Shown here piece by piece: positions 27,064 through 49,194 of a stretch of 64,000 nucleotides of DNA. Where the stretch lies: contig JAIBBZ010000003.1 in NCBI GenBank assembly GCA_019694435.1, positions 124,001-188,000 of the forward strand, in the 5' to 3' direction. A program made the translations under genes and the position numbers. Positions within the stretch are counted from its first letter, which is position 1. Each line of letters begins with the position of its first letter. The notes beneath the pieces are model-generated. The model was not told the DNA's origin. It made no database searches and worked only from the letters and a program-made list of their open reading frames with translations. This DNA comes from Pirellulales bacterium (lineage in GTDB: Bacteria > Planctomycetota > Planctomycetia > Pirellulales > JAEUIK01).

Positions 27064-30000
27064 GTGAACTTGTACGGCTCCAAGAACGGGCAACCTCCAA
27101 TGGACGACGGCCCGGCCAGTTTTGACGCGATCGTCCTTTCCCTTCCCGGTACGTTTCAGGCCAGCCTGCCGATCGCCGCGGCTCGCGCCGGTGCGCTGGG
27201 ATTGCTCGATTTGTGCCATTTACGCGCGGAGCAAGCGGGCGACGCACGCGCCGAATTGGCCCGCCTGCAGAACTCGGTCGAACAGGGCCGGACGGGCGTT
27301 TGCGTCTTCGCGCGCTGGGACGAACTGCATCAGCAGATTCATGCAGCCGCCCGCGGCAGCGACACCGTCGTGCTGGTGGCCGAAAGTTCGGACGATCTGA
27401 GCACGGAGGTGAACCGCTGGCGCGAAGTCGCCGCGCGCGTGGGCCTGGTTGTCACGAATGGCCCCGCCGCGAGAGCAGCCATCGCCGCAGGCGCAGACTT
27501 TCTCATCGCCAAAGGACACGAGGCCGGCGGCCTCGTCGGCGAGGAAACGACGTTCATCCTCGTACAGCGTTTGATCGGTCAAATGCCGGCCAACGCCCGC
27601 GTGCCGGTGTATGCCTGGGGCGGGATCGGGCTGCGGACCGCGGCCGCCTGCGTCGCGGCCGGCGCGGCAGGCGTGGTCCTCGACTGGCAATTGGGCTTGT
27701 TGCGCGAATCGCCGCTGTCCGATTCGTTCAAACGCCGTCTCGCGCAAATGGACGGCAGCGAGACCGTGGCCATCACCGGCCCAGCAGGCGAAATCGTCCG
27801 CCTTTACTGGCAGCCCGGCATGACGGCGCGCGATCGCCTGCTGCAGCTTTCGGATCGCGTGCAAATGGGCCAGGAGGTAACGCTCGCCGAATGGCGGCAA
27901 ACCATCGGCGAATTGCTCGTGGCCGAGCAGGAAAACGATCGCCTCTGGGCACTCGGGCAAGACGCCGCGCTGGCGAGTTTGTGGGCGCGCGAGTTGACCG
28001 ATGTTCCGAACGTGGCTCGCGCGCTCGGCTTGTTGCGCGAACGCTCGGTGCGGGCCATCGAAGGTGCCCGAGAGGCTCGGGCGCTGGCCCCCGATGGCCC
28101 CCTGGCGGCCTCGCACGGGACCGAATTCCCGGTGGCCCAGGGGCCGATGACGCGCGTCAGCGACGTGCCCGATTTTGCCTTGAAGGTCGCCGAGGGGGGC
28201 GGTCTGCCGTTCTTGGCCTTGGCGCTGTTGAGCGGCGAGCAATCGCGCGATTTGCTCAAGGCCACGCAAACGCTGCTGGGCAAGCGTCCCTGGGGCGTTG
28301 GCGTGTTGGGCTTCGTGGATCGCGAGCTGCGGGCCAAGCAGTTTGCCGCGATCGAAGAGGTTTGCCCGCCGTTTGCGATCATCGCCGGCGGCCGCCCCGA
28401 CCAGGCGGCGGGCCTCGAGGCCAAGGGCATCTGCACGTACTTGCACGTCCCGTCGCCGGGCATGCTGTCGATGTTCCTGACCGAAGGCGGCCGGCGCTTC
28501 ATCTTCGAAGGCCGCGAGTGCGGCGGCCACGTCGGTCCGCGGAGCAGCTTCGTGCTCTGGGAAAGCATGATCCAGGTCCTGCTCGACGCAAAACTGCCCG
28601 ACGACGAGCTGGCCAAGATCCATGTGCTGTTCGCCGGCGGTGTGCATGACGCGCTGAGCGGCGCGATGGTGGCCACCCTGGCACAGCCGCTCGTGGAACG
28701 CGGCATCAAGATCGGCGTCTTGCTGGGCACGGCCTACCTGTTCACCGAGGAAATCGTCTCCAGCGGCGCCATCCTGCCAGGCTTCCAGGCCGCGGCTCTC
28801 GAGACGCAACACACGGTCCTGCTCGAGACGGGCCCCGGACACGCGACGCGCTGCGCCGACACGGAGTTTTATCGTGTGTTCCTCGAAGAGCGTGCCCGGC
28901 TGAAGCGCGAACAGGTGCCGGCCGAGCAGCTGCGCGAAGAGCTCGAAAGTCTCAACCTGGGTCGCCTGCGGATCGCGTCGAAAGGCGTGGCCCGCCGGTC
29001 AACCACGGCGCCCGGGGAGAGCCCCTATGTGCAGGTCGACGCCGACACGCAGCGGCGCGAAGGCATGTTCATGATCGGGCAAGTGGCTGCGTTGCGCGAG
29101 CGGCCCTGCACGGTGCGCGAACTGCATGACGACGTCTGCCGCGGCGCGCTGGCGCGGCTGGCGGCTTTGCACGACCAGGCCAGCGTGTCGATCGTGCCGG
29201 TCGAGCCGGCGCCCGCCCCGTTGGACATCGCCATCGTCGGCATGGGTTGCTTGATGCCTGGCGCCCACGGACTGGCCGACTACTGGAACAACATCCTCAG
29301 GAAGAAAGACCTCGTGCGCGAGGTGCCGGCCGATCGCTTCGACTGGCAACGCTGGTACGACGCCGACCGCAACGCGCGCGACAAGGTCTATAGCCGCTGG
29401 GGCGGTTTTCTCGAAGACGTCCCCTTCGATCCGCTCAAGTACGGCATTCCGCCGGCAGCCTTGGCGAGCATCGAGCCGATGCAGCTGCTTGCGTTGGAAC
29501 TCGTCGATCAGTGCTTGCGCGACGCCGGGTACCGCGATCACAACCCTTACAAAGAACGCACCAGCGTCATCCTCGGTGCCGGTGGCGGCATTGCCGAACT
29601 AGGTGCCGGCTACGCGGTCCGAGCTAGCATTCCCGGGCTGATCGAGAACCCGGACGAGCGGCTGTGGTCGCAACTGCCTGAGTGGACCGAAGACAGCTTC
29701 GCCGGCATTTTGCTGAATGTCGTCGCCGGGCGCATCAGCAATCGCTTCGACTTCGGTGGCGTGAATTTCACGGTCGACGCGGCCTGTGCCTCGTCTCTGT
29801 CGGCCGTGTATCTCGCCTGTCGTGAGTTAGCCGATGGTACGAGCGATTTGGTGATCACTGGCGGCTGCGACACGCTCCAGAGTCCGTTTACGTATCTTTG
29901 CTTCGCCAAGGCCGGTGCCTTATCGCCGCGCGGTAAGTCGCGCACCTTCGACTCCACGAGCGACGGCATCGCGATCAGCGAGGGCCTGGCCGCCGTGTGT

Positions 30001-33000
30001 CTCAAGCGGCGCGCCGATGCCGAACGCGACGGCGACCGGATCTATGCCGTGATCCGCGCGGTTTCCGGCGGATCGGACGGCCGCAGCAAGGGCATGACCG
30101 CGCCGCGCAAAGAAGGCCAGATTCGCACGCTCGAACGGGCTTATGCCCAGGCGCGGTTCAGCCCCGCCACGGTCGGGCTGTTCGAGGCGCACGGCACGGG
30201 CACGGCCGTCGGCGACCAGACCGAGTGCCAATCGGTCACCACCGTGCTGAAGAGCCGCGAAGTGCCGCCGCAAAGCATCGCGGTGGGCAGCGTGAAATCC
30301 ATGGTCGGCCACACCAAGTGCACGGCCGGCGTGGCGAGCCTGATCAAGTCGGCGCTGGCCCTGCACCACCGCGTGCTGCCGCCCACGCTGCACGTCGATA
30401 CGCCGAATGCCAAGGCCGGGCTGGTCGATGGGCCGTTATACGTCAACAGCGAGCTGCGGCCGTGGATTCGCGGCGAACATCCGCGCCGCGCGGCCGTGTC
30501 GTCGTTCGGTTTCGGTGGGACGAATTTCCACGCCGTGCTCGAAGAATACACCGGCGCGGCCTTATCCACGGAAAAACTGACGCCGCATCGCGAGCGCCCC
30601 GCCGAGCTGTTCTTGCTGGCGGGCAATTCGCCGTCGGCATTGGCGCAGCGCATCAAGTCGCTCGCCGACCCGTTGACCAAGGCACTCGCGGCCGGCAAGC
30701 GGATTCACCTGGGCGAATTGGCGCTCGCCTGGCAGCGGCGGCAAGGTGCCGCGGCCGGAACGTCGCGCGCCGCCGTCGTCGCCGCGACTCCCGAGCAGTT
30801 GCTCGAACGTCTGCAAGCCCTGGCCGCGCGTTTGGCCGGCACGGCCGCCGCCAGTGGTGGAGTGGCTGGGGTGTACTGCACCGAATCGCCGCTGGGTGGC
30901 ACCGGCCCCCTGGCCATGCTGTTCCCCGGCCAGGGTTCGCAGTATCCCAATATGCTGTGTCCCTTGGCCGTCGAGTTCTCCGAGGTGGCCGGCTGCTTCG
31001 AGCGTGCCGACGCCGAGCTGCGCGGCGCCTACGAACAACCGCTAAGCACATTCGTCTATCCGCCGCCGGCCTTCGATGACGCCCAGCGGCAACGCCAGAC
31101 CGAAGCGCTCAAAGCGACCGACGTCTTGCAGCCGGCCCTCGGCGCGGCCGACGTCGGCATGGCGCGCCTGCTGGCGGCTTGCGGCGTGGTGCCCGCCATG
31201 GTTGCGGGCCACAGCTATGGCGAACTGGTCGCGTTGCACGTGGCCGGCGCGATCGACGAGGCGGCGCTCTATCGCCTCTCTTTGGCCCGAGGCCGGGCCA
31301 TCGTCGAGATGAGCGCGGGCCACGAACGCGATCTCGGCCGGATGCTGGCGGTTCGTGCGCCGGAGCACGAGGTGCGCGCCGCGCTGGCGGGTTCGCCCGA
31401 GGTTTGGCTGGCGAACATGAACAGCCCGCGGCAGACGATCATCAGCGGCACCCAGGCCGGCCTGGCACACGCGACGCAACAGCTCGAGGCCGCGCGCCTG
31501 GCTTCGACACCCATCGCCGTTTCCTGCGGTTTCCACAGCCCGCTGATGGAGCCGGCCCGGGCGCGATTTGCCGAAGCGTTGGCCCAAGTCGACCTGCGAC
31601 CGGCGCAGATCGACGTGTTCAGCAACACGACGGCCGAGCCCTATCCCACGGAACCGGCTGCCATGCGGCAGCGTCTGGCCGAGCACCTCGTGCGTCAGGT
31701 GCACTTCGCCGCCGAGATCGAGGCCATGTACGCGGCGGGGGCCAGGGTGTTTGTCGAGGCGGGACCTGGCCGCGTGCTGACCAAGTTGACCAGCGAGATC
31801 CTGGGTAACCGTCCGCACGTGGTCGTGGCCACGCAGATCACGGCCCAGAACGGCTACCCGGAATTCCTCGCGACGCTCGGCGAACTCTACGCACACGGCG
31901 TGTCGATCGACGTCGAGCGGCTCTACCAGGGCCGCGAACTGAAGACCCTGGACCTGGCCGAACTGGCCGCTCCGTCGAAGCCGTTGCCCAAGCACTTTGT
32001 CCTGATCAACGGCAGCTATCTTCGCCCCGCCGGAACACCGCCGCGGCAGTTGGCGTCGCGCGTCAGCCTGCTGGGCGACCAACCTACGGCGCCGCAGCCC
32101 GCCGCAGCAGCCCCATCGGCGGCGCCGAAAGTGGGCGCCACGCCGAGCCTGGCCGTGAAACCGCCGGTGAGCGCGCCTATCGCCGCGACAGCGGGCAGCC
32201 ACGCCGCTCCGGCTGCTGCCGCTGGACCCATCGCGGCGCCGCCAGTGCCGGTCGCGCCCGCAGCTTCTCCGGCACCGCTTGCCGTACAGCCGCCCGCGCC
32301 CGAGATGGGCGACGTGGCCATGCGCGAATTCCAGCACACAATGCGGGCCTTCCTCGACGCCCAAGAGAAAGTGCTGACCGCCTACCTGACCGGCTCGCCG
32401 GCGATGGCTGCTTCGCCGCCTGCGCCTCCGATCACGGTCGAAGCGCTGCCCCTTGCCGCGAGCGGACCGGTCGTGGCGATGCCCACCGTCGAGGCATCGA
32501 CGCCGCTTGCTCCCACGGTAGCTGCTTCGGCATCCGCCGCGCCGCCTTTGGCTGCCCCTGTGCCGCCGCCGGCACCGCGCACGATCGCTGCGGCCACTTA
32601 TATCGGCGCCGCGGGGCCAATTATCTCGCCCGCACCGGCGCCGCGCGAACAACAGCCGACCAAGGCGGCCGAGTCGACGCCAGTCACCAGCACGCCGCTC
32701 GACGAATTCCTGGTCGAAATCGTCAGCGATCGCACGGGCTATCCCGGCGACATGTTGTCGATGCAAGCCAATCTCGAGGCCGACCTCGGTATCGATTCGA
32801 TCAAACGCGTCGAGATCATCGGCGCTTTCCGCCGCGCGGCGCTACCCTCGATCGACGAACCGCCCGGTTGGTTCATGGAGAAGATGACGGGCGCCAGCAC
32901 GCTGCAACAAATCCTCGACGGCGTACACGAACTCGTCGGGGAACAAGCACCGCAAGCCGCGTCACGAACGGACGGAGCAAAAGCCCCGGCCGCGCCGGCC

Positions 33001-36000
33001 ACCGTGTCAGAAGCTGCCGCCGTCGACCCGGCACAGCTCGAACAGATGCTCGTCGAAGTGGTGAGCGATCGCACGGGCTATCCCGGCGATATGCTCGCGC
33101 TGGACGCCAACCTCGAGGCCGACCTGGGCATCGATTCGATCAAACGCGTCGAGATCATTGGCGCTTTCCGCCGCGCGGCGCTGCCGTCGATCGACGAACC
33201 GCCAGGATGGTTCATGGAGCGCATGACTGGCGCCAGCACCTTGCGGCAGATCCTCGCCGGTGTGGCCGATCTGGCCGGCACGGCAGCCGCGCCCGAAGCG
33301 CAAGCGGCGGCTGCGCCGGCGCACACCGCACCGCACGCTGCGGCTCCTGCCGAGGCCGCCGCGCTCGACCAGGACCAACTGACCGACATGTTGCTGGGCG
33401 TGGTGTCGGACCGCACGGGTTACCCCAAAGAGATGCTCGGTTTGACGGCCAATCTCGAGGCCGACCTGGGCATCGACTCGATCAAGAAGGTCGAAATCGT
33501 CGGCGCCTTCCGCCGCGCGGCGTTGCCGAGCGTCGATGAACCGCCGGCCTGGTTCATGGAGCGACTGTCGGGCGCCGGTACCTTGGCGCAAATCCTCGAC
33601 GGCGTGACCGCGCTACATGCCCAAATCACTCCCGCCGCCGCGCATCCGGAAACGTCTGCCGTTTCCGCCGCTTCGACCGAAGTCGCGGGCACGCCGTCCG
33701 TGGCGCCGGAGCAACTACAACAACTGCTGGTCGACGTCGTCAGCGAGCGGACCGGGTATCCGGCCGACATGCTGGCCTTGGATGCCAACCTTGAAGCCGA
33801 CCTGGGCATCGACTCGATCAAGCGCGTGGAAATCATCGGCGCATTTCGTCGCGCCGTGTTCCCGCACATCGACGAGCCGCCCGCGTGGTTCATGGAGGAA
33901 ATGACCTCGGCCGCGAATTTGCGGGCCATTCTCAACGGCGTCGAACGGCTCAGCGTTGCAGCCCACGGCAATGCCCCCAGCAACGGGACCAGTCATGGGC
34001 CCAGCAACGGGTACAGCCGTGCTGAAGGCAACGGGGCCAAGGCCAACGGTGCCTTGCCGGCCTCCGCGCCGGCCGCCGAGACCACTGAGTCGACGCCGCG
34101 TTGCGTCCCGGCGATTCTCGAAGCGCCGCTCGCGAAGGAGACACGGATGCCGCAAATCGCCGGCGCCGTGGTGCTCACAGATGATGGCCGCGGCGTCACC
34201 GCCGCCTTGCAGCGCGAACTTCAGGCCCAAGGCCTGCCCGCGGAGATCATTCCCGCCGAGGTGCTCGCTTCGCGCGATGCCACGACGGCCACGCTCTCGC
34301 TGGTACGTCAACGCTACGGGGCAATCGGTGCGTTGGTGCATCTGGTGCCTCTGACGCAGACGCCGGAGTTTCCCGGCATCGATCCCGGCACCTGGCGCTC
34401 GCGCGTCGAGGCCGAGCTCAAGGGACTATTGCACCTGTTGCAAGGTGCTGCGCCCGACCTGGGCGGCGCTTACGACGGCAACCTGATTGTCCTGGCCGCC
34501 ACGCTCGGCGGCGGAGACTTCGGCGGCGACGCCGCTCAGGAAGCCTCGCGCCCCTGGCGCGGTGGCATTGCCGGCATGCTCAAGACCGCGGCCAAGGAAT
34601 GGATCGGGGCGCGCTTCCGGGCCATCGATTTCGACGCCGTGCCGGAAATCGAGCTGCTGCTCGCCGAGCTGCAGAGCACTGGTCCGGTCGAGGTGGGTTA
34701 TCGCCATGCCCGCCGGCTGACTGTCGCCCCGATGCGGCAAGAGTTTGCGACCTCGGCCGCGGGCGAGCGGGCCCAACTGCCCGGACTTCGGCGCGAGAGC
34801 GTCGTGCTGGTGACCGGTGGGGCCCGGGGCATCACGGCGCATGTCGCGCGGGCGCTGGCCGCGCGTTCGCAGGCCACAATGGTTCTGTTGGGGCGTAGCC
34901 CCCTGCCGGTCGAAGCCCCCCACCCCTGGGCCGAATCGCTCGCCGATCCCGGCCAGGTACGGAAAGAGTTGATCAACCGGCTGCGCGCGGCCGGCACGAG
35001 CCCCTCGCCGCGCGAAGTCGAGCGCGAGCTGGTTCGCATCCTGGCCGATCGCGAGATCCGCGAAAACCTCCAGGCCATCGCGCAAGCCGGCAGCCGGGTC
35101 GAGTATCACGCCTGCGACGTGCGCGACGAACAGGCCTTGGCCGCGGTGATCAACGACGTGCAATCGCGCCTGGGCCCGATTGACGCTCTGATTCACGGAG
35201 CCGGCGTGATCGAAGACCGCTACATCGTCGACAAGTCCGACGATTCGTTCGACCGCGTCGTCGGCACCAAGCTCGACGGGGCGTTTGCCTTCACCCGGCT
35301 GCTCGACCCCCGACAATTGAGATATTGCCTGCTGTTCTCCTCGGTCTCGGGCTTCTTCGGCAACCCGGGCCAGGTCGACTATGCTGCGGCCAACGAGGTG
35401 CTCAACCGCATGGCCGCCCGGCTGGCGCGGGTGTGGTCGCAGACCAAGGTCGCCGCGCTGAACTGGGGCCCCTGGTCCGGCGCCGGCATGGTTACCGCCG
35501 AAGTGGCGCGCCAGTTTGCCGAACGCGGCGTCGGCATGGTCACCCTGCCCGGCGGCTGCCAGGCAGTGGTCAACGAGTTCGAGTTCGCCGACGGCACGAC
35601 GAATGTCCTGTATGGCCCTGGACCGTGGCTGGCCGACGCAGAGCGCCTGGCCGCGCAGTGCGCCGCGGTGTCCGTGGCGACCGCGTTGCTCGCCGGTCAG
35701 GTCGTGCATCGCCTGAGCAACGGTACGATCGAGGCCTACGTCACGCTCGACGCGGCACAGCACGGCTTTCTCCGCGATCACATGATCGACCAGAAACCGG
35801 TCTTCCCCGCGGCGTTTGCCCTGGAGTTGATGGCCGAAACGGCGCTGGCCGCGGCCCCGCCCGGCTGGCACGTGACCCACGTCGAAAACCTGCGGGCCTT
35901 CGCGGGCATCGTGCTCGACGAGCCCACGCGGACGATCCTGGTGCGCGCCGAAGCGATCGACTGGCAGGAATCGGGCGGAGTGTGGCGCGTGCGGATTGTC

Positions 36001-39500: not shown

Positions 39501-41939
39501 TCTGCGCCGGCTGCCACCTCGGCGCCGTCAACAGCGGCTGTCTCCGCGTCGCCCGCCTCACACGCGGCCGCGGCGCCGCCCTTGCCCCGGGCCGCGACTC
39601 CGGTCAAGCCAGCGCCTGCACTTCCCACAGGTACGCCGACCGTCGCCGCTTCGGCAACGTATGCCAACGGCCATGCATCGGCCGCTACCCCTCGGTCGCC
39701 GGCCACCCCGTCGCAGCCCGCGGTTGCGGCGAGCGCGGCCATCGACCCGCGCACCCAGGCCGTGGTCGACTACCAGCGCACGATGCGTCATTTCGTCGAG
39801 ATGCAGCAGCGCATCATGTCGACGCGTCTCCAAGGCAGGCAGCCGGCCTCGACGCATAACGGTGTCGCGGCCCCGGGTTCCGTAGCGGCGAATCCGGCGG
39901 CAGTGAAACCTGCACCCGTGGTATCGGCGTCTGTAGTACCAGCGGCAACGCCGCCGGCTGTGTCTGCCGTTGCCGCGCCAGCCACACGCCCGACGCCGCC
40001 GGTGGTCGCGCCCGTCGTTCATGCGCCGGCACCGGCGCCGCCCCCCGCCGCGCCATTGGCGGCGACACAAAATGGTCATACCGCGGCGGCAACTCAGGCG
40101 ATCGCAGTCACTCGCGCCAGCGCGTCTTCTCCCGCTCCTCGTGAAGCCGCGAAGGCACCCGGCAGTCCGCCACCCGCGAGCAGTGCGCCAGCGACGGGCA
40201 CCGCCACGTTGCCGCGCACGCAGCGCTCGACGCTGCCGCTGCTGGAAACGGTGTTGATCCACGAACCCGGCTCCCGGCTGCTGGCCGAATGCGAGTTGGA
40301 CATCGAGCGACATCGCTTCCTGCTGGATCACACGTTCCTGGGCCGGGCGTTGTCGACGGTCGATTCGAACCTACAAGGCCTGCCGGTCATGCCGCTGGCC
40401 ATGTCGTTGGAGTTGATGGCCGAGGCGGCTGCCAAGCTCTGCCCGGACCTGACCGTGGTCGCGATGGATAACGTGCGGACCATGCGTTGGCTGGCCTTCG
40501 AGACCAGCAATCGCCGCGTGCGCATGGAGGCCCGGCAGCTCGACGAGACGCACGTGCACGTCACAGTGTCCGAAGCCGATCGCGAAGGCTTCAGCGCCGT
40601 GATCGTCGAAGGCAACGTCGAACTGGGCGAATTCGAACCGGAGCTTGGACCCGCGGTCGTGCCCGATCGGGCCACCGAGCCTGCCCCCTGGGCCGAAAAC
40701 CTCTACGACTGGATTCTGTTCCACGGCCCGGCGTTTCAAGGCATCGATTCGATCGACGCCTACGAGCCGACGGCGATTCGCGCCACGGTGCACGAGCCCG
40801 ACGCCGGGCTGCTGTTCGCGCCGGGCGCCGGTGGTCCGCTCGTATTGCCGTCGGCGCTGGTCGATGTCGCGTCGCAAGTGCCGGGCATGATCTACGGCCA
40901 ATGGCACCCGGAAGACCCCGAGGTGTACATGGTCTTCCCGAACAGCATCGGCCGGCTAGAGTTTGTCGCCGACCGGCCGAAAGCCGCGCTCACGGCCGTA
41001 GCCACGATGCACCGCGAAGGTGCGTTGCTGCACTCCGACGTCGAGCTCAAAGCGCCCGACGGCCGGATCGTGCTTCGGATGACGGGGCGTGTGTGCCAGG
41101 TGGTCGATTTCCCCACGGGCCTACACCACTACTCGAAGGCCTCGACGCGGGTCACCTGCAGCCGCGATATCACCGAGGTGTTCGCCGGCGTGCCACATAT
41201 CGAAGCGTGCCGCGTGTGCGAAACTTTGACGGCGGGCAGCCCGATCTTGCTTAATCGCCTCTGGTCGCAAGTCGTGGCGCGGATGATCCTCGATCGCCAG
41301 GAACGGGCGGCGTTCGCCGGGCAAAAGCTCTCGCCTGCCGCCGCGGCCTACTGGCTGGCCGGGCGCATCGCGGCCAAAGACGCCGTGCGGTTGTTCGCCG
41401 GGGCACCGATTTGCATGGCCGACGTCGCCATCACGGCCAACGGCGACGGCAAGCCGCACGCCCATCTGCCTGGCGATCTGGCGGCGCCGGCCGTGAGCAT
41501 CGCACATAAGGAATTCAAGGCCGTCGCCCTGGCCGCGCCGGCCCAGCTGGCCGCGGTGGGAATCGACATCGAGGCCCTGATCGCGATGGACCCGGGCCTG
41601 GTGGCCGACGCGTTCACCCCGGAGGAACTGGCCCTCCTGGCCGCAGCGGCCACGGCGTCGCAAGAGCCGGTCGACAACTGGTATCTCTCGGCCTGGAGCG
41701 CCAAAGAGGCCCTCGGCAAGGCCTTAGGTCGCGGCGTGCTCGGCGGCCCGCGAGCCGTCGAAGTCCGCCAGGCCTGCGCCACCACCGGACGCTTCTTGTT
41801 AGCACTGCGCGGGCCGATGGCCGAAGCATTTCCGAAATTAACGTCGAACGAGGCCGGTGAGATTTGCCTGCCGGCGTATCGCCGTTTACACGGTCCCTAC
41901 TGCGTGGCGATCTGTTTGTTAGAATCGCTGCCTGCCTGA
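36555..41939 (+). CDS. Pfa-like megasynthase subunit: KS-AT-DH-phosphopantetheinyl transferase
   Basis: An 1794-residue partner of the preceding synthase, translationally coupled through ATGA. KS (about 15-450) has Cys218, His353 and His393, so it is a condensing enzyme rather than a chain-length-factor-type KS. AT (about 590-900) has Ser685 in GHSSGE. A long Ala/Pro linker (about 960-1215) contains a helix (about 1070-1096) that echoes the one in the first synthase. A DH-type hot-dog region has His1259 in LLDHTFLG and the DxxxQ pair Asp1437/Gln1441. The C-terminus is an Sfp-type 4'-phosphopantetheinyl transferase with GIDIE (Asp1671, Glu1673) and WSAKEALGKALG (Lys1717, Glu1718). There is no ACP here, so it must act on the four ACPs of the partner or the separate ACP. 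The fused transferase presumably activates those carriers. Confidence 0.92.
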   Translation: MTLPADATAADLSPPAARADEDIAIVGMACFLPGADGPRRYWQNIVGKVDCVGEPTPDWQPEFFAPHVYVRRGGFLGEIARFNPARYGIMPSSIEGAEPDQFLAFRCAVEALHDAGYPEIPINRPKTGVILGRGIFINRGLLTMISQGYMIGQFVDLLRQLEPERTADDLALIERELRKRMPPFNSETVPGLTHNILAGRVANRLDLNGPAYTVDAACSSALLAVDQSIRELRSGRCDMVLAGGVQVSTPGMVHMAFCYLDALSKQGKIAPFSAEASGTLLGQGCGVLVLKRRSDAERDGNRIYALVKGVGTSSDGKGSGLLAPSQAGQEIALRQAYGTTGVDPATIGLVEAHGTGIPLGDQTEIKTLTSVFGARHGAKPTVAVGSVKSMISHLIPASGAASLIKTALALYHRVLPPMLHAEQPNPALGLERTPFYLSTTTRPWIHGERRHPRRAGVNAFGFGGINTHAILEEHLPAAESDLPRLEDNWPVELVVVSAESREALCTRLGQLRVWLERAPHVRLLDVAASTAAESGALRVAIVAQSVADLLKKLVTAEKMLSDPAREKIQDRSGIFWYAQPLAAAGRVAFVFPGEGAQYPNMLADLCRHFPEVRREFDLTDAAFLRTPGRQPLSRLIYPLPDETQAAEAELLELGGAVTSVTLASRALLALLRTLAIEPQAIVGHSSGEFGALMAAGAIAPEGDEALIDALSEGANNAARLSSSGLVPPAVLLAVGGAERAAVDAVVEHAAGRLTIAMDNCPSQVILSGDEAAVDAAIEGLRGKGGLCEKLPWGRAYHTAAFEPASGIIEDYFRTIGLQSPRVETWSCASVERFPAEPPGVQELAVRQWRSPVRFRETVEAMYAAGVRIFLEVGPRGNLAAFVSDTLKKQPHLSVALDVPRYDGVTQLCRALGQLVAHGVPLNLDALYRRRQPQRLDLAAEPPAAPKTDPVLRLDLPTFALSDETLATLRQSKPDVNTASAMPSAPAATSAPSTAAVSASPASHAAAAPPLPRAATPVKPAPALPTGTPTVAASATYANGHASAATPRSPATPSQPAVAASAAIDPRTQAVVDYQRTMRHFVEMQQRIMSTRLQGRQPASTHNGVAAPGSVAANPAAVKPAPVVSASVVPAATPPAVSAVAAPATRPTPPVVAPVVHAPAPAPPPAAPLAATQNGHTAAATQAIAVTRASASSPAPREAAKAPGSPPPASSAPATGTATLPRTQRSTLPLLETVLIHEPGSRLLAECELDIERHRFLLDHTFLGRALSTVDSNLQGLPVMPLAMSLELMAEAAAKLCPDLTVVAMDNVRTMRWLAFETSNRRVRMEARQLDETHVHVTVSEADREGFSAVIVEGNVELGEFEPELGPAVVPDRATEPAPWAENLYDWILFHGPAFQGIDSIDAYEPTAIRATVHEPDAGLLFAPGAGGPLVLPSALVDVASQVPGMIYGQWHPEDPEVYMVFPNSIGRLEFVADRPKAALTAVATMHREGALLHSDVELKAPDGRIVLRMTGRVCQVVDFPTGLHHYSKASTRVTCSRDITEVFAGVPHIEACRVCETLTAGSPILLNRLWSQVVARMILDRQERAAFAGQKLSPAAAAYWLAGRIAAKDAVRLFAGAPICMADVAITANGDGKPHAHLPGDLAAPAVSIAHKEFKAVALAAPAQLAAVGIDIEALIAMDPGLVADAFTPEELALLAAAATASQEPVDNWYLSAWSAKEALGKALGRGVLGGPRAVEVRQACATTGRFLLALRGPMAEAFPKLTSNEAGEICLPAYRRLHGPYCVAICLLESLPA

Positions 41940-42077: not shown

Positions 42078-43655
42078 ATGAAGACGGTCTTGCTCGGTCT
42101 CGATGGGGCAACATTCACGATTCTCGATCACCTCGTCGCCACCGGCGTGATGCCGCACCTGGGCGAGATGTATCGTCGCGGCGCGCGGGCCCTGCTGGGC
42201 TCGACGCCCCTGCCGCTCACGCCACAGGCCTGGACGACGATGGCCACGGGCCGCAACCCCGGCCATCACGGCATCGCCGATTGGATTCGTTGCGAGCAGG
42301 GTGCCAGTGGCACGTATTGCCATCTGAACAATGCCCGCGACAACCACTGCGAGACGCTGTGGAGCTACGCCTCGCGGCAGGGCAAGCGCGTCACGGTGCT
42401 GAACTACTTCGGCCTGGCCCCGCCTTCGCCCATCAACGGCCATACGATGCCCGGCTTCACTTCGGGACGGCACTTGCGCCGCTCGAGCTATCCGGCCGAT
42501 CTGTTCGCGCGGCTCGAAGGCGTCTCGGGTTTCGACGTCAAAGTCCTCGGCATGGACTTCGACGTCGAGATGCAAGGTCTGCAGGAAATGGACCACGAGA
42601 ATTGGGCTCGTTGGATCGATCATCAAATTGCGCGCGACCGGGTGTGGATGAGCGTGATGGAGCACCTGATGCGCACCGAGCCGAGCGACCTGACGGCGAT
42701 GGTCCTCGACGGTACCGACAAGTTGCAGCACCTGGCCTACCGCTTCCTCGATCCGGCGCTGCGCCCGGCTCAACCCACCCCGTGGGAACAACAAGTCACC
42801 GAACGCTGCCAGGCCTACTATCGCCAGGTCGACGATTTCCTTGGCCGCCTTGCCGAATTGGTCGGCGCTTGGGGACGATTGTTCATCGTCTCCGATCACG
42901 GCTTCACCGGCACGCAGGAGATCGTCTACATCAACCGCTGGCTGTGCGATCAGGGGTTGCTGCACTGGCGCGGCGAGGTGCCCGAGGACCAGGCCGAGGC
43001 CTGCCAGACCGATCGCCCCGCGCAGGATGCCAACCTGGTCGACCTCGAGCGCAGCCGGGCCTATGCCCTGACGCCCAGTTCGAACGGTGTGTTCCTGAAT
43101 GTGCCGCCGAGCGAGTACGTGGCGTTTCGCGACGATCTGATCGACAAGCTGCTCGCCCTGCGCGGCCCCGACGGCGGGCAAGTCATCACCGAGGTCAAGA
43201 AACGCGAAGACTGGTTCGCAGGCCCGTATATCAACCACTTCCCCGACCTGACGCTGACGCTCCGCGACCACGGCTTCGTTTCCGTGCTCAACGGCCGCGC
43301 GCCGGTCGTGCCGCGCAGCGTGCCCAACGGCACTCACCATCCCGACGGCATCCTCGTGGCCACGGGCACCGGCGTTCAAGCGGGCGTCGACGCGGGCAAG
43401 TACTACCTGTTGGATATCGCGCCGCTCTTGGCCCATAGCCTGGGTCTGGAGATTCCGGCCGATTACGAGGGTGAGCTCCCCGAGCGGATTTACGATCCGG
43501 CCTATCTGGCCAGCGATCGGCCGCGTCAGGCTCAGGCGGCCGCGGAACCCGCGCCGGCGAGCGTGGCCTCGGGCGGCGATGCTGCCGGCGAACTCGATGC
43601 CGAAGACGAAGCGATCATCATGGCGCGGCTTAAGAGCCTGGGGTACATCGAGTGA
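42078..43655 (+). CDS. AlkP-superfamily phosphodiesterase/transferase, paralogue 1
   Basis: A metal-dependent enzyme of the nucleotide pyrophosphatase/phosphodiesterase branch. From ATG 42078 the first metal ligand is Asp9 in GLDGA and the nucleophile is Thr54 in WTTMATG, followed by RNPGHHGI. Further ligands are visible in LDGTDKLQH, SDHGF and HHPDGILVATG, so the site looks intact. There is no signal peptide, so it is probably cytoplasmic. The C-terminus ends LKSLGYIE, as in many planctomycete AlkP relatives. The gene lies 138 bases after the second megasynthase. A close paralogue lies at 46692. In-frame codons from 42012 are not favoured because the domain begins right at MKTVLLGLDG. The substrate is unknown. 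A role in releasing, trimming or transferring a phosphorylated group on the cluster product is inference. Confidence 0.85.
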   Translation: MKTVLLGLDGATFTILDHLVATGVMPHLGEMYRRGARALLGSTPLPLTPQAWTTMATGRNPGHHGIADWIRCEQGASGTYCHLNNARDNHCETLWSYASRQGKRVTVLNYFGLAPPSPINGHTMPGFTSGRHLRRSSYPADLFARLEGVSGFDVKVLGMDFDVEMQGLQEMDHENWARWIDHQIARDRVWMSVMEHLMRTEPSDLTAMVLDGTDKLQHLAYRFLDPALRPAQPTPWEQQVTERCQAYYRQVDDFLGRLAELVGAWGRLFIVSDHGFTGTQEIVYINRWLCDQGLLHWRGEVPEDQAEACQTDRPAQDANLVDLERSRAYALTPSSNGVFLNVPPSEYVAFRDDLIDKLLALRGPDGGQVITEVKKREDWFAGPYINHFPDLTLTLRDHGFVSVLNGRAPVVPRSVPNGTHHPDGILVATGTGVQAGVDAGKYYLLDIAPLLAHSLGLEIPADYEGELPERIYDPAYLASDRPRQAQAAAEPAPASVASGGDAAGELDAEDEAIIMARLKSLGYIE

Positions 43656-43710
43656 CCTGCACGCGCCCCCTATCGATCCTTTGCGCAGCGCGCCTGCGGC
43701 GGAGTGCCTG

Positions 43711-46305
43711 ATGGTCGCCTCGCCTGCTAGTGCAGCGTCCGCGAGCGGACCCGAGGGGCCGAGTACCGGGCCGCGCCCCGTCGGCCTGAGCACCGGTCAC
43801 TTTCGGCGGATCGCCGCCAACGGGTTTGGCGACCCGCACAATTCTTACGCCTACGGCTATGCCTGGTACCGCGATAACCTGTTCGTCGGCACCAACCGCG
43901 ACATCCTGGTGCAGGCCCGTAAGCGTTTCAAATTCAGCGTGCCCACGGCGATGTGGCCGGTCGAGGTGCCGGAAAGCATCGATACGTTCGACTTGGGCGC
44001 GCAGATTTGGCGTTATAACCCGCGCATCGATCAATGGAAGCAGGTGTTTCGCTCGCCGTACGTGCCGGGGCTCGAGGGGAAGACGGTGCCCCTGGCGAGC
44101 GGCTTTCGCAACATGGCGGTGTTTCAGGGCAAGAGCGACCCCTGCCCTGCCCTTTACACGATCCCGAGCTGCGGCTCCTACGGCATCGGCCCCGTGCTGA
44201 TGCGCACGCTCGACGGTGAACGGTTCGAGCAGGTCAGCGAACAAGGTCTCGGCCTCGACGACCCGAACGTGACTTCGTTCCGCTCGATGGTCGTGTTCAA
44301 GAACCGGTTGTTCATGACGCCGGCCGGTTCGCGCGGGTTCGATCCGAACGTGTCGTACTTTGCGCTGATCCTTTGCAGCGACGACCCTTCGCGCGGAAAC
44401 TGGAAGATTACCAATCCCGGCAGCTTCGGCGATCCGACGAACTACGGCATCTACGACATGTGCGTCCGCGGCGACTTTCTTTATGCCGGGACGATGAACA
44501 TCCGCGAAGGCTTTCAGCTTTGGAAAACCGACGGCGAAGGCGAGCCGCCTTTCCACTGGACCAAGGTGCTCGATCGCGGGGCCGATCGCGGGCCGTGGAA
44601 CCAGGGCGTCGTGTCGATCAATCCCTTCGGCGATTGCGTCTATCTGGGCACCGGCATCCAGAACGGCGGCTTCGATCGCAACAACAACATCGGTCCTGGC
44701 GCCGGCGAGGTAATTCGCGTCTGGCCCGACGACACCTGGGACCTGGTCGTCGGTCAACCGCGCATGACGCGCTGGGGACTGAAGATCCCCACGAGCGGCA
44801 TGGGCCCCGGCTGGGACAACGGCTTTGCCGGCTATATCTGGCGCATGTGCCAGCACCAGGGCGCGTTCTACGTCGGCACGTTCGACTCGACGGCCATGTT
44901 TCCGTTTGCGCCGCTCGACGAACGCGCGCAACGTGTGTTCGATCGCCACACGCAGGAACAGTTCATGCAGTTTCGCGGCGGCACCGAGCTGTGGCGCACC
45001 GTCGATGGCGACAACTGGGTGCCTGTCACGCGTAACGGCTTCGGCAATCCGTACAACTGGGGCATTCGCACGCTGATTTCCACTCCCGCGGGTCTGTTCG
45101 TAGGCACGGCCAACCCCTTCGGACCGAAAGTCGCGGTGCGCGGTCCCTCGGGCTGGCGGTACGAGTTCAATCCGCAGGGCGGGGTCGAAGTCTGGCACGG
45201 CAACCACGATCACGTCGCGACCCAAGCCACTCCCGATCACCCGGCGGGCGTGCAGATCATTCCCGAGCCGACGCTGGCCGGCGAGCAGATCACGCCGGGC
45301 GAGGCCGCGTTGAAGATGCCCGAAATGGGCGACGATTCGTTACGGGTCATCGACGAATTGATCGCTGCGGCGCCTCTGTCCGACGTGCGCGAAGACGACG
45401 ATCGGCCGACGCATTCGCTCGACACCTGGAGCGAACGCCCGCTGGACAATCGCGACTTCGACCCTCGGCTGCAGTTGGCCGATCAGGAGCAACTCGAAGC
45501 CTTCCACGAACAAGTCGCGGCCGAAATCGACGACTATTTCCTGGGGACCCGGCTGCGTTCGGTCGGCTACTGGCGCTTCGAGCATTGGACCCCCGCCGAG
45601 GCGGCCCGTGCCCTGGTGAACGAGGCTCTGGCCGTGGCGACCGGCGACCTGGCCAAGGACGATACGGTCGACCTTCTGCCGCGCACGGGGCGCACGCTGG
45701 CCATCGGCTACGGCGCCGACGAATTGGCCGCGGAGCTACACCGGCTGCGGCCGCTACTCTCGATCGAACCCGTCGAGTTGGCCGGGTTGGTGGGTCAGGT
45801 GTCGAGCCTGACGGGCCGTCCCAACTGGCGATTGCCCGCCGAGAGCGCCGCGGTCGAACTGGTCGTGTGGATCGACGGGCCGGGCGAAGTCGACCGATTC
45901 ACGGCGCTCCGCGAGGTCGCGCGCGTGCTACGGCCTGGCGGCTGTTTTGTCGCCGCCGATTCGGTGGGCCCGTTGTTGTCTGAGTTGACCGAGCCGCTCA
46001 ACGCGCCTCAAGACATCCATCAACCCGCCGCGCCCGAAACGTTGTATGCGAAGGCACTCGGCAAGATGGGCCTGACGCAGATCCGCATTGCCGATTGCAC
46101 GCGCGACGGCTGGATGCGATTCTGCCGGCACAGCCGCAACTATTTCGGCGTCCGCTTCCTGATGAACCAGATCGATGCTGACCGGTTCCGCGCGATCTGC
46201 CAGGCGCTGCCCTGCGGGCGGCGGATGATCGAGCAGCAGCTGCTGATCTGTGCCGTCAAGCCGGGCGAGGTGCCCGAAGCGCCTGCGAATTCACCTACCA
46301 CCTGA
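43711..46305 (+). CDS. Beta-propeller protein fused to a degenerate methyltransferase-like domain
   Basis: The ATG at 43711 has GGAG at 43701-43704. About 520 residues form roughly seven propeller-type repeats with the pattern 'hydrophobic-G-x-LYVGT ... ELW-T-DG' (DNLFVGTNRD, DFLYAGTMN, CVYLGTGIQ, AFYVGTFDS, TELWRTVDGD, GLFVGTANP). A linker of about 110 residues follows. The last 280 residues look like a class I SAM methyltransferase: VLRPGGCFVAADS fits the post-motif region, but the glycine-rich SAM loop is reduced to LAIGYGADELA, so binding is doubtful. No signal peptide is present. It sits between two AlkP-type genes and next to an ACP gene, all on the same strand. I do not recognise a family with this fusion. 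Function unknown. A scaffold or docking role in the cluster is possible. Confidence 0.75.
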   Translation: MVASPASAASASGPEGPSTGPRPVGLSTGHFRRIAANGFGDPHNSYAYGYAWYRDNLFVGTNRDILVQARKRFKFSVPTAMWPVEVPESIDTFDLGAQIWRYNPRIDQWKQVFRSPYVPGLEGKTVPLASGFRNMAVFQGKSDPCPALYTIPSCGSYGIGPVLMRTLDGERFEQVSEQGLGLDDPNVTSFRSMVVFKNRLFMTPAGSRGFDPNVSYFALILCSDDPSRGNWKITNPGSFGDPTNYGIYDMCVRGDFLYAGTMNIREGFQLWKTDGEGEPPFHWTKVLDRGADRGPWNQGVVSINPFGDCVYLGTGIQNGGFDRNNNIGPGAGEVIRVWPDDTWDLVVGQPRMTRWGLKIPTSGMGPGWDNGFAGYIWRMCQHQGAFYVGTFDSTAMFPFAPLDERAQRVFDRHTQEQFMQFRGGTELWRTVDGDNWVPVTRNGFGNPYNWGIRTLISTPAGLFVGTANPFGPKVAVRGPSGWRYEFNPQGGVEVWHGNHDHVATQATPDHPAGVQIIPEPTLAGEQITPGEAALKMPEMGDDSLRVIDELIAAAPLSDVREDDDRPTHSLDTWSERPLDNRDFDPRLQLADQEQLEAFHEQVAAEIDDYFLGTRLRSVGYWRFEHWTPAEAARALVNEALAVATGDLAKDDTVDLLPRTGRTLAIGYGADELAAELHRLRPLLSIEPVELAGLVGQVSSLTGRPNWRLPAESAAVELVVWIDGPGEVDRFTALREVARVLRPGGCFVAADSVGPLLSELTEPLNAPQDIHQPAAPETLYAKALGKMGLTQIRIADCTRDGWMRFCRHSRNYFGVRFLMNQIDADRFRAICQALPCGRRMIEQQLLICAVKPGEVPEAPANSPTT

Positions 46306-46350
46306 CCCCCTGTCGCCGCGTCGATTGCGACGCGGACGCGGAGCCATGCG

Positions 46351-46635
46351 ATGCCTACGACCGACACGATTCTCAGCGATTTGAAGTCGCTGCTGGCCGA
46401 TATGACCAGCGACTGGGACACCAGCTTCGAGGGCGAAATCACGCCCCAGACCCGGCTGATCACCGACCTGGGCTTCGAGTCGATCGACGTCGTGCAACTC
46501 GTCACCGCCATTGAAGAGCACTATGGCCGGCGCGATTTCCGCTTCGAAGAGCTGTTGATGGAAGGTGGAACCTACGTCAACGAAGTCAGCGTCGGGCGGA
46601 TCGTCGCGTTCCTCGAGCGTCATTTGAACAAGTAG
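46351..46635 (+). CDS. Free-standing acyl carrier protein
   Basis: A 94-residue acidic carrier protein. The phosphopantetheine attachment site is Ser44 in DLGFESIDVVQL, a DSL-motif variant with Glu before Ser. This resembles discrete ACPs from secondary pathways more than the housekeeping AcpP form. Helix II continues VTAIEEHYG. ATG 46351 has GGAG at 46340-46343. It sits between the propeller protein and the second AlkP gene, so it may carry an intermediate to the tailoring enzymes, with the fused transferase in the second synthase as its likely activator. Confidence 0.92.
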   Translation: MPTTDTILSDLKSLLADMTSDWDTSFEGEITPQTRLITDLGFESIDVVQLVTAIEEHYGRRDFRFEELLMEGGTYVNEVSVGRIVAFLERHLNK

Positions 46636-46691
46636 TTTCCCCGCCTTCGCCCCGTTCCTGCCAGCACCGCCGCAGCGCGCAAAGGTCTGCC

Positions 46692-48272
46692 ATGCAACCC
46701 ACCGTATTGATCGGCCTCGACGGCGCCACCTACTCGATTCTCGACCCGCTGATGGCGGCCGGGCAGATGCCGCACCTGCAACAGTTCCTGGCCCGTGGCG
46801 TCCGCGCCGAGCTGCTGACGACGCCGCATCCGCTCACGCCCCCGGCCTGGACGACGCTGATGACCGGTCGCAGCCCGGGGCATCACGGAATCTTCGATTT
46901 CTTGCGTTCCGAGGTCCGCGCCGGCGGCGCGTTCTTCACGCTCAACAACTTTCGCGACATTCACTGCGAAACGATCTGGTCGATCGTCAGCCGCCAGGGC
47001 GGTAGCGTCACTTCGCTCAACTTTCCGCTGATGGCGCCGCCGCCCAAGGTTTCCGGCTCGATCGTGCCCGGCCTGCTGTCGTGGCGGCATCTGCGCCGCA
47101 ACATCCACCCGGTCGAGCTGTATGACGAGCTCAAGGGCCTGCCCGGCTTCAATCCCAACGAGATCTCGTGGGATTTCGAGCACGAGAAGAAGGCCATGCA
47201 GATCCTCGAAGACGAGGAGCTCGAACCGTGGACCCAGTTTCACATCGTGCGCGAACGGCACTGGTTCGAGATCACCAGGCACATCATGGAACAACACCCG
47301 GCCGACCTGACGGCCGTCATGTTCGACGGGGTCGACAAGCTCCAGCACGGCTGTTGGCGATTCCTCGATCCGCGCTACTTCAGCGCTCAGCCTAGCGCGT
47401 TCGAACGGCGGATGCGCGAGCTGTGCGTGCAATACTTCCACGAGCTCGACGGCTTCATCGGCCGCATCGTCGCGCTGGCCGGCCCGCAGGCGCGCGTCTT
47501 CATCGCTTCGGACCACGGCTTCGGGCCTACCGAGACGGTGTTCCGCATCAACAAATGGCTCGAAAGCCAGGGCTACCTCCAATGGGCCGATCGTACGGCC
47601 GAGAAGCCCGCCGCCGGCCATTTCGTGGCGCTCGATTGGGAGCGGACGATAGCCTATGCCCCCAGCGGCGCGACCAACGGCATTCACATCCGCGTGGCGC
47701 ACGGCCCTGGTGAAACGGGCGTGGCGGCAAACGAATATCACGCCTTCCGCGAGCAGCTTATCGCCAAGCTCAAGGAGCTGCGCCACCCGGAAACCGGCGT
47801 GCCGCTGGTACGTGACGTGTTGCTGCGCGAGCAGGCATTTCCTGGCGAGGCCGGCAAGTCGGGGCCCGACTTGACGCTCGTCCTGTTCGATCACGGTTTC
47901 TTCTCGGTGCTCGACGCCGAGCCGATCGTCTGGCAACGGCCGCTGGTCGCGGGAACGCACTGTCCCGAGGGGGTCTTCGCCGCGGCTGGCCCCGGCATTC
48001 CGCGCGGCATTGCCGTGTCGCAGCAGTCGATTCTCGACGTGGCGGCCACGCTGCTTTACAGCCTAGGCTTGCCGGTTCCCAGCGACTTCGAGGGGAAGGT
48101 GATGCAGGCGGCGTTCGAGCCGGCCCAGCTTCAGGCCCAGCCGATCGTCACCGGGCCGCCGACGACTTCGCCCTCGGGCACGGTCGAGCGCGTCGCGGTC
48201 GACGCGGACGCCGAAGCCGACTCGGACGAAAAGATCCTGCAGCGATTGCGAGCCCTGGGCTACGTCGAATAG
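46692..48272 (+). CDS. AlkP-superfamily phosphodiesterase/transferase, paralogue 2
   Basis: A 526-residue paralogue of the enzyme at 42078, matching it along its length. Asp10 in GLDGA, nucleophile Thr55 in WTTLMTG followed by RSPGHHGI, then FDGVDKLQH, SDHGFGPTE and GTHCPEGVFAAAGPGI provide the family's metal ligands. The C-terminus ends LRALGYVE. There is no signal peptide. It follows the ACP gene by 56 bases with an AAAGG ribosome site. Two intact copies in one cluster suggest different substrates or a heterodimer. A substrate cannot be read from sequence. Confidence 0.87.
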   Translation: MQPTVLIGLDGATYSILDPLMAAGQMPHLQQFLARGVRAELLTTPHPLTPPAWTTLMTGRSPGHHGIFDFLRSEVRAGGAFFTLNNFRDIHCETIWSIVSRQGGSVTSLNFPLMAPPPKVSGSIVPGLLSWRHLRRNIHPVELYDELKGLPGFNPNEISWDFEHEKKAMQILEDEELEPWTQFHIVRERHWFEITRHIMEQHPADLTAVMFDGVDKLQHGCWRFLDPRYFSAQPSAFERRMRELCVQYFHELDGFIGRIVALAGPQARVFIASDHGFGPTETVFRINKWLESQGYLQWADRTAEKPAAGHFVALDWERTIAYAPSGATNGIHIRVAHGPGETGVAANEYHAFREQLIAKLKELRHPETGVPLVRDVLLREQAFPGEAGKSGPDLTLVLFDHGFFSVLDAEPIVWQRPLVAGTHCPEGVFAAAGPGIPRGIAVSQQSILDVAATLLYSLGLPVPSDFEGKVMQAAFEPAQLQAQPIVTGPPTTSPSGTVERVAVDADAEADSDEKILQRLRALGYVE

Positions 48273-48306
48273 GCGGACGCCACGAACGGCACGCAACAGG
48301 ACGCCT

Positions 48307-49194
48307 ATGCCTTACCTCGTTCATGAAGGCGTCCGTTTGAACTATCGCGATGCCGGCCAGCGCGGGGCCGCGGGTGTCGTGTTGCTGCACGGCCTGGCGG
48401 CCAACCAGGCGTTCTGGAACCTGGAGCTGGTCGGCCAATTGGCGGCCGACTGGCGCGTCATCACCTACGATTTGCGCGGCCACGGATACAGCGACACTCC
48501 GGCCGACGGCTACGAGCCGGAGGCCCAGGCACGCGATCTCGTGGCGCTTTTGGACCACCTCGAGCTGCCCGCGGCGCATCTCGTGGGGCACAGCTTCGGT
48601 GGGCTGATCGCGCTGCAGGCCGCGATCGACTCTGCGCCGCGCGTACGTTCGCTCGTGCTGGCCGATTCGCGCCTGGCGGGCCTTGCTCCGGAGCAGATTC
48701 TGCCGCAGCAATTCGATTGGCGCGACTTGCAACGGCGCCTGCGGCGCAGCGGCGTGCGCCTCGCAGAACACGAAGCGGAAATCGGGCTGTGCCTGCTCGA
48801 AGCGATCGCTGGTCCGCGCTGGCTGGGCGTGCGTCAAAAGGCCCGCGGACAGGTCAAGTTTCTCCCCTTTGCCGCCTCAAAACGCTCGGGCGAACAATGG
48901 CTGAAGCTGCTGCAGGCGACGCAAGCAGATCGCGGCTTTCGCGACCGGGGCCAGGTCTTGCCCACGACGATCGCGGCGCTCGACATCCCCTTGTTGGCCG
49001 TCTACGGGGAACGGTCGCCGCATCGCGCCAGCATGCAGGCGCTGGCCCATTGGGGACGGCACGTGCGGTGCGAAACGGTCGCCGACGGCGGACACTTTCA
49101 CCCGGCTGCCGAACCGCTGCGATTCGCCGCCATCGTGCGCGCGTTTCTCGGCGAAGTCGCTACAATCTCCCCGGGGGCAGCGGAGCACGCCTGA
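48307..49194 (+). CDS. Alpha/beta hydrolase, candidate thioesterase/lipase of the cluster
   Basis: A 295-residue single-domain hydrolase. The oxyanion segment is LLHGLAANQAFW, the nucleophile Ser96 in GHSFGG, and the catalytic His is likely in DGGHFHP near the C-terminus. The acid is probably in PLLAVYGERS, where the usual Asp is replaced by Glu. There is no signal peptide, so it is cytoplasmic. The gene lies 34 bases after AlkP paralogue 2 with an AGGA ribosome site, so it fits the same operon. The synthases have no thioesterase domain, so this enzyme could release the chain. That is inferred from position. Confidence 0.8.
   Translation: MPYLVHEGVRLNYRDAGQRGAAGVVLLHGLAANQAFWNLELVGQLAADWRVITYDLRGHGYSDTPADGYEPEAQARDLVALLDHLELPAAHLVGHSFGGLIALQAAIDSAPRVRSLVLADSRLAGLAPEQILPQQFDWRDLQRRLRRSGVRLAEHEAEIGLCLLEAIAGPRWLGVRQKARGQVKFLPFAASKRSGEQWLKLLQATQADRGFRDRGQVLPTTIAALDIPLLAVYGERSPHRASMQALAHWGRHVRCETVADGGHFHPAAEPLRFAAIVRAFLGEVATISPGAAEHA

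Follow-up and report, generated by a model that had tools for sequence, protein, structure and literature searches.

A probable secondary-lipid synthase and its conserved accessory genes in a Pirellulales genome

Positions 27,064–49,194 of the 64,000-nucleotide stretch analysed here (the window; positions 124,001–188,000 of contig JAIBBZ010000003.1, assembly GCA_019694435.1, Pirellulales bacterium) encode two megasynthases, MS1 and MS2, that resemble subunits of polyunsaturated fatty acid (PUFA) synthases. They are followed by genes of a protein of the alkaline phosphatase superfamily (AlkP1), a propeller protein fused to a methyltransferase-like domain, a discrete acyl carrier protein (ACP), a second AlkP (AlkP2), and an alpha/beta-hydrolase. 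The locus raises the questions of which class the synthase belongs to and whether the accessory genes are part of its pathway. Based on sequence comparisons and on analogy with characterised relatives, we consider it fairly probable that the locus encodes an iterative type I secondary-lipid synthase of the NMO-NMO-ketosynthase branch, to which type P synthases also belong. The enzyme, probably of Type O, would work with a dedicated set of tailoring and release genes to produce a long, largely reduced acyl chain.

Accessory genes across bacterial phyla

We searched one genome per species, 84,980 species in all, with an alignment of MS2 and kept the best 80 loci; the NMO pair of MS1 and the propeller served as probes for relatives. 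The MS2 loci fall into two cluster types, alpha and beta. In alpha clusters, MS2 is followed by genes of an ACP, an AlkP, an alpha/beta-hydrolase, and usually a propeller, often in that order and with short gaps. The carriers are Ca. Brocadia (L069), Ca. Tectomicrobia (L132), two Solimonas (L073, L083), a gammaproteobacterium from Lake Pavin (L071), Actibacterium mucosum (L074), TMED88 (L077), an acidobacterial metagenome-assembled genome (MAG; L072), an unassigned MAG (L068), and relatives of the window's genome (G005, G006, G018). The order ACP-AlkP-hydrolase-propeller is preserved in Ca. Brocadia, Ca. Tectomicrobia, Actibacterium, and others, and the four genes form a conserved package in at least five bacterial phyla. 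The original prediction regarded the accessory genes as atypical. Their interpretation as a local oddity is rejected, since the same set is found in many other genomes.

Beta clusters are organized as MS1-MS2-ACP-hydrolase-glycosyltransferase, followed by a methyltransferase or a second glycosyltransferase, and occur in Streptomyces, Frankia, Chryseobacterium, Pedobacter, Chitinophaga, and others. Judged by their genera, they probably correspond to Types M and N in the classification by Shulse & Allen (2011, PMC3098273). Types M and N, from Frankia, Streptomyces, Chitinophaga, and Chryseobacterium, would accordingly share with the window an MS1 (NMO-NMO-KS-AT-ACP-KR), a subunit composed of ketosynthase (KS), acyltransferase (AT), dehydratase (DH), and phosphopantetheinyl transferase (PPTase) domains, an ACP, and an alpha/beta-hydrolase, all in the same order. 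However, they contain one or more glycosyltransferases, and often a methyltransferase, where the window has AlkP and propeller genes, and the KS domains of their MS2 form a separate clade. An AlkP gene adjoins MS2 in nine of ten alpha loci but in none of 44 beta loci with enough downstream sequence (Fisher p ~2e-9, uncorrected for shared ancestry).

The propeller is present in all 11 alpha genomes, including that of Ca. Cyanaurora (Gloeobacterales). In a sample of 294 genomes of the window's phylum, it was found only in the window's own genome, apart from one weak partial match, and searches of plasmids gave no propeller match. A plasmid search with AlkP retrieved mostly distant haloarchaeal proteins. 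Duplication of AlkP was observed only in the window and in G005. We found no description of a cassette combining an AlkP, a propeller, and a polyketide synthase (PKS) in the open-licence literature.

Tailoring genes vary among the relatives of the window's genome. G018 (L150:5265-13000) and G006 encode intact methyltransferases and SDRs around or after the propeller gene. A TauD dioxygenase is encoded near the propeller gene in G018, and homologous open reading frames (ORFs) are present in G006.

Related synthases occur in other arrangements. One MAG of the anammox bacterium Ca. Brocadia, MAG_8, holds two loci of this synthase type (L067, L069); a connection with the ladderanes of anammox bacteria was weighed on this account, but we make no such claim. 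A plasmid of Rhodobacteraceae bacterium SC52 (L147) carries, at positions 11892-26746, an NMO-NMO synthase, a TauD dioxygenase, a methyltransferase, an AT-DH-PPTase subunit, and an ACP. The window's own genome has a paralogous cluster (L038, G000:C7:30001-48000) composed of an MS1 (47%), a KS-less AT-DH-PPTase subunit, an ACP-like ORF, and an alpha/beta-hydrolase, a layout that recurs in G005:C10, G001:C171, and G652. The same genome also encodes a 3735-residue KS-KS(AT)...KR protein (KR, ketoreductase; L044, G000:C25:50001-70000), whose second KS groups on a long branch with the PfaC-type chain-length factor (CLF).

The megasynthases and their class

MS1 scores above the cut-off of the PfaA subfamily profile TIGR02813 (Table 1), in keeping with its earlier description as Pfa-like. 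The catalytic residues of its KS (Cys-His-His), AT (Ser-His-Arg-Gln-Gln), KR (Ser-Tyr-Asn), and DH (His-Asp) are intact. Among 40 MS1 sequences gathered by similarity to the NMO pair, the KS and AT residues are invariant, and those of the KR and DH are identical wherever the domain was aligned. In five MS2 homologues, one of them from Streptomyces, the KS triad C218/H353/H393, the AT residues S685/H797, the DH residues H1259/D1437, and the PPTase motifs are invariant. The Cys-His-His triads originally ascribed to both KS domains are thereby borne out, as is the fusion of a PPTase to the C-terminus of MS2. The DH domains of both megasynthases are of the PKS type (PF21089/PF14765) rather than the FabA type.

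The tandem NMO/FabK-like pair is common to all 40 MS1 relatives, among which are type P-like synthases from Beijerinckia and Methylosinus; therefore, the N-terminal fusion is a trait of the clade and no oddity of the window's genome. Similarly, the KS-AT-DH-PPTase subunit with its C-terminal PPTase recurs in dozens of genomes. The unusual composition claimed in the original prediction is thus not upheld. The proposed enoyl-reductase-like part was correctly recognised as N-terminally fused to the KS, but it consists of tandem NMO/FabK-like domains and is not a PfaD. The PfaD profile TIGR02814 matched nothing in the genome at E<=0.001, although it matched control genomes, including that of B. 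subtilis, and 43 of the 294 genomes from the phylum. A fused PfaD as the reductase of MS1 is ruled out by this result.

The position of the KS domains was determined in a quick LG+G4 tree with SH-aLRT support and without bootstrap; as references, it contained PfaA and PfaC of this phylum that are linked to PfaD. The MS1 KS groups with those of type P and other NMO-NMO synthases, and this group is sister to PfaA-type KS (95-98% SH-aLRT). The MS2 KS falls into a clade of its own (99% SH-aLRT). This clade adjoins that of PfaA and MS1 and lies apart from the KS and CLF of PfaC, which excludes MS2 as a fusion of PfaC and PfaE. L070 and L074, relatives from orders that also contain Type O genera, group with the window. 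By these sequence criteria, the synthase is not a PUFA synthase, despite the PfaA-like score of MS1. The window shares with the PfaA-E systems (Types A/B) a PfaA-like subunit with tandem ACPs, a second KS subunit, and a PfaB-like AT without the malonyl-binding Arg. However, it lacks PfaD, the KS-CLF, and the pair of FabA-type DH domains, its PPTase is fused, and its MS2 KS is not that of PfaC.

The nearest characterised kin of MS1 is ArsA of type P, which makes C23-C25 fatty acids for alkylresorcinols and phenolic lipids (PMC4824345). Together with the missing PfaD and the lack of relationship to PfaC or CLF, this supports the earlier view that the cluster is not a canonical PfaABCDE system and is unlikely to make eicosapentaenoic (EPA) or docosahexaenoic acid (DHA). 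Type P ArsA/ArsD of Azotobacter and Beijerinckia resemble the window in combining an NMO-NMO-KS-AT-ACP-KR synthase with a DH-PPTase subunit; in the type P-like clusters of Beijerinckia and Methylosinus, these parts are 42-47% and 27-30% identical to those of the window, respectively. In contrast to the window, with its additional KS-AT and DH, type P has no second KS-AT and no AlkP, propeller, discrete ACP, or hydrolase, and releases its chain via a type III PKS. No type III PKS gene was found among the flanking genes scanned in the window, and KAS III-type genes are present in the Beijerinckia and Methylosinus loci.

Shulse & Allen distinguished 20 types, among them Type O from Dinoroseobacter, Gloeobacter, and Parvularcula, with unknown product. 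The window's synthase is probably of Type O, because alpha relatives belong to the same orders (Rhodobacterales and Gloeobacterales) and because of the PPTase motifs. The motifs DGKP and VSIAH of MS2 fit the P1a x(G/D)xP and P1b' hShxH (not FNxSH) given for Types M-T. Type O also shares with the window a Pfa-like synthase; the main text of the paper makes no mention of the AlkP, propeller, ACP, and hydrolase cassette.

The two megasynthases differ in their AT domains. In the AT of MS2 (ACYLTRANSFERASE), of alpha-type MS2 proteins, and of the KS-less AT-DH-PPTase paralogues, FPGEG (YPGEG once) replaces FPGQG. These ATs retain the catalytic Ser and His, lack the malonate-binding Arg, and carry RxYHT (or YHS/YHC) where malonyl ATs have xxFHS; the MS1 ATs carry the malonyl residue set. 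PfaB, the terminal acyltransferase of PUFA synthases, is likewise without the malonyl Arg (PMC12895367). Because the malonate-binding Arg and the Gln of GQG are lost, and by analogy with PfaB, the MS2 AT probably moves either a completed chain or a starter other than malonyl, with the discrete ACP as a plausible donor or acceptor. The ACP located inside MS2 of G005 fits such a transfer.

AlkP and propeller proteins

The predicted pair of AlkPs is confirmed by matches of both proteins to PF01663. The AlphaFold2 (AF2) model of AlkP1 has a pLDDT of 86.8, and its best fold matches, with ties among many, are NPPs: Xac NPP (Z 29.0, rmsd 3.6, 345 residues aligned), ENPP7 (Z 28.4), and ENPP6 (Z 27.9). 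Residues D9, T48, D214, H218, D273, H274, and H420 are invariant in an alignment of 13 homologues; we take the Asp and His residues to be the metal ligands, and T48 the nucleophile, expected of an NPP. As judged from the alignment and the predicted model, the AlkPs resemble phosphodiesterases of the NPP fold and have the full set of metal and nucleophile residues. AlkP1 differs from the NPP family of the alkaline phosphatase superfamily in its low identity (~17%), in having no signal peptide evident in its sequence, and in being encoded with a lipid synthase. A sequence search of the PDB with AlkP1 gave no match. At their C-terminus, the AlkP homologues have a disordered linker and then an invariant LxxLGY tail (window positions 43620-43655 and 48240-48272).

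The propeller was predicted by AF2 mostly with pLDDT 70-96. Its fold resembles many unrelated WD40 and YncE-like propellers with Z of 23-26, and such unspecific matches give no function. Nine alignment columns invariant among nine propeller sequences are Arg, which we infer would suit an anionic ligand. The propeller stands alone in several lineages (L132, L069, L071), is fused to what reads as an NAD-epimerase-like part in L074, and is joined to a methyltransferase-like domain only in the window's relatives. The fusion protein has no Pfam match. Its C-terminal part is homologous to real methyltransferases, although a PDB sequence search gave weak methyltransferase matches only. The S-adenosylmethionine (SAM) motif I (DxGxGxG-like) is degenerate in all four fused copies, but G006 and G018 have stand-alone copies that preserve it; no intact stand-alone copy was found in the window's cluster. 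The propeller-methyltransferase-like fusion of the original prediction holds for the architecture, and an active methyltransferase is rejected owing to the loss of the motif.

Operon, proposed pathway, and alternatives

The seven adjoining genes lie on the forward strand with intergenic gaps of -4, 138, 55, 45, 56, and 34 bp in 5' to 3' order, where the first is the 4-bp ATGA overlap between MS1 and MS2. Codon-position GC gives the cluster genes a strong coding signal on this strand (GC3 0.79-0.85), so the reported run of genes with short gaps is as described (Table 1; domains were assigned using Pfam and NCBIfam profiles). The cluster is complete, as originally proposed; nevertheless, its end probably lies past 49194, as the next gene encodes an esterase with a signal-peptide-like N-terminus. 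We count this gene as a probable part of the operon because it also stands beside the orthologous clusters of G005, G006, and G018, which are all three orthologous loci with flanking sequence. The TPR gene is possibly the last of the operon.

An HlyD-type adaptor and a TolC-like OEP are encoded near the cluster (window positions 15662-20441). In relatives, namely Ca. Brocadia (L069:15094-17967) and the Lake Pavin gammaproteobacterium (L071:23700-25604), genes of HlyD-type adaptors likewise lie close to the cluster or immediately next to the propeller gene. These neighbours suggest export. Upstream of MS1 and divergent from it, positions 20720-25381 of the reverse strand encode a 1553-residue protein with Ig, PKD, and RTX repeats and a lower GC1.

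Table 1 Features of the locus. Positions are those of the window.
Feature	Position	Strand	Evidence
MS1 megasynthase, 3164 aa, NMO-NMO-KS-AT-ACPx4-KR-DH	27064..36558	+	TIGR02813 1285 bits (cut-off 1010); catalytic residues invariant in relatives
MS1 first NMO/FabK-like (enoyl-reductase-like) domain, HEAGG motif	27151..27813	+	PF03060; FabK model weak
MS1 second NMO/FabK-like domain, ECGGHVG motif conserved in relatives	28096..28983	+	Pfam, alignment
MS1 KS, C908/H1043/H1083	29224..30558	+	Pfam, alignment, KS tree
MS1 malonyl-type AT, GQG, GHSYG, Arg1409, FHS	30910..31827	+	Pfam, alignment
MS1 four tandem ACP domains, LGIDSI x4	32671..33933	+	Pfam, motif
MS1 KR, S2760/Y2773/N2777	34801..35478	+	Pfam, alignment
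MS1 PKS-type DH, H2906/D3076	35695..36366	+	Pfam, alignment
MS2 megasynthase, 1794 aa, KS-AT-DH-PPTase	36555..41939	+	Pfam/NCBIfam, homologue alignment
MS2 KS, C218/H353/H393	36612..37979	+	Pfam, homologue alignment, KS tree
MS2 non-malonyl AT, FPGEG, GHSSG, RAYHT, no malonyl-binding Arg	38313..39257	+	AT alignment
MS2 PKS-type DH, H1259/D1437	40236..41105	+	Pfam, alignment
MS2 PPTase domain, GIDIE, WSAKEA	41553..41792	+	PF01648, motifs
AlkP1, NPP-fold phosphodiesterase-like, 525 aa	42078..43655	+	PF01663, alignment, AF2 model, fold matches
Propeller protein (residues ~25-500) fused to degenerate methyltransferase-like domain	43711..46305	+	Alignment, AF2; no Pfam match
Discrete ACP, 94 aa, FESID	46351..46635	+	Pfam
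AlkP2, AlkP1 paralogue (43% identical)	46692..48272	+	PF01663, alignment
Alpha/beta-hydrolase, GHSFG ... GGHFH	48307..49194	+	Pfam; adjoins ACP in relatives (conserved)
Secreted PHB-depolymerase-like esterase	49213..50235	+	18 bp gap after hydrolase; adjoins G005, G006, G018 clusters too
TPR protein	50287..51252	+	Near G005 and G018 clusters too

Gene content, domain integrity, phylogenetic placement, and conservation of the cassette are the basis of the following model. The PPTase domain of MS2, as suggested by its motifs, would activate the carrier domains. The AT of MS1 would load malonyl units, and the chain would be elongated on the tandem ACPs. In each cycle, the KR, two DH domains, and the FMN-type reductase pair may reduce the chain; considering these domains, with their intact residues, and the C23-C25 fatty acids of ArsA, the simplest assumption is a long acyl chain that is largely reduced. 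MS2 would contribute a second active KS and the non-malonyl AT, which most probably shuttles a completed chain, or a starter other than malonyl, between synthase and discrete ACP. The hydrolase would release or edit the ACP-bound chain; we propose this route because the discrete ACP and the hydrolase are conserved in both alpha and beta clusters. The AlkP occupies the position of the glycosyltransferase in beta clusters and, therefore, may act on the head group. We speculate that its substrate is a phosphodiester of the lipid, of its head-group donor, or of a carrier, which it would cleave or transfer, and that the propeller serves as a binding partner or scaffold. A phosphorylated lipid product is possible, and the secreted esterase, together with the HlyD-type exporters of some relatives, could point to an envelope lipid.

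Other interpretations of the locus are less likely. A variant EPA/DHA-like PUFA synthase, with PfaD, PfaC, and PfaE fused onto other subunits, would explain the PfaA-like score and tandem ACPs of MS1, and the second KS subunit with its non-malonyl AT recalls the division of labour between PfaB and PfaC. Such an enzyme is nevertheless unlikely, given that the PfaD search was negative in this genome and positive in the controls, the KS tree shows neither a PfaC-type MS2 KS nor a CLF, the DH domains are of the PKS type, and the phylum contains genuine PfaD/PfaA/PfaC clusters as separate entities. The KS-AT-...-DH-PPTase order of MS2 resembles, from general knowledge, that of enediyne-type synthases (PKSE). 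However, a PKSE is a single KS-AT-ACP-KR-DH-PPTase polypeptide, whereas the window splits these domains over two subunits, with four ACPs on the MS1 side. Accessory genes of the enediyne type were not recognised near the cluster; an enzyme of this or of the heterocyst-glycolipid (HglE) type is very improbable. We also doubt that the AlkP, propeller, and other accessory genes are bystanders that share the operon while serving a separate cell-envelope function. PF01663 AlkPs do occur in many prokaryotes, as in the haloarchaeal plasmid matches, and the function of the propeller is unknown, but in at least five phyla the same accessory set accompanies this synthase type, either beside it or in the same genome, and the sister beta clusters have no AlkP.

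Somewhat less easily set aside, though still not probable, is a polyene or partly reduced polyketide, a pigment or antibiotic-like compound released by the hydrolase, in which the second KS and DH would generate conjugated or skipped double bonds. Two intact DH domains and two active KS suit such a product, the enoyl reduction of PKS-like systems is programmable, and the genome holds other PKS clusters. Yet nearly all MS1 relatives have retained both reductase domains, the type P relatives supply long fatty-acyl chains, and the genes next to the cluster include no resistance or regulatory set of the kind usual for antibiotics. Several points weigh against the secondary-lipid synthase with its own cassette, which we prefer. 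Two active KS and two DH domains could equally yield polyenes. The products of the close relatives are all unknown, so that chain length and reduction are extrapolated from a type with another release route, the type III PKS. The Type O label draws on the shared orders and the PPTase motifs. Acuticoccus (L075) has no AlkP, ACP, or hydrolase within 10 kb and is the sole AlkP exception among the ten alpha loci, and G005 has no recognisable discrete ACP or hydrolase within 48 kb, although its MS2 includes an ACP.

The megasynthases belong to a recognised, largely uncharacterised group, and the transferable result is the conserved set of partners around the synthase. In different phyla, this synthase type is accompanied by a propeller family without a Pfam match, and the place of the sister group's glycosyltransferases is taken by an NPP-type phosphodiesterase. 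We tentatively raise the idea, as a long shot, that the ACP-AlkP-hydrolase-propeller cassette represents an undescribed, widespread pathway, in which the phosphodiesterase and the new propeller family would turn long acyl chains of PKS/FAS origin into envelope lipids with a new class of phospho-head-group, replacing the glycosyltransferase step of the sister clusters in actinobacteria and Bacteroidetes. The partner set provides a testable handle on the nature of 'secondary lipids', and the culturable carriers Solimonas and Actibacterium are organisms in which the product could be found.

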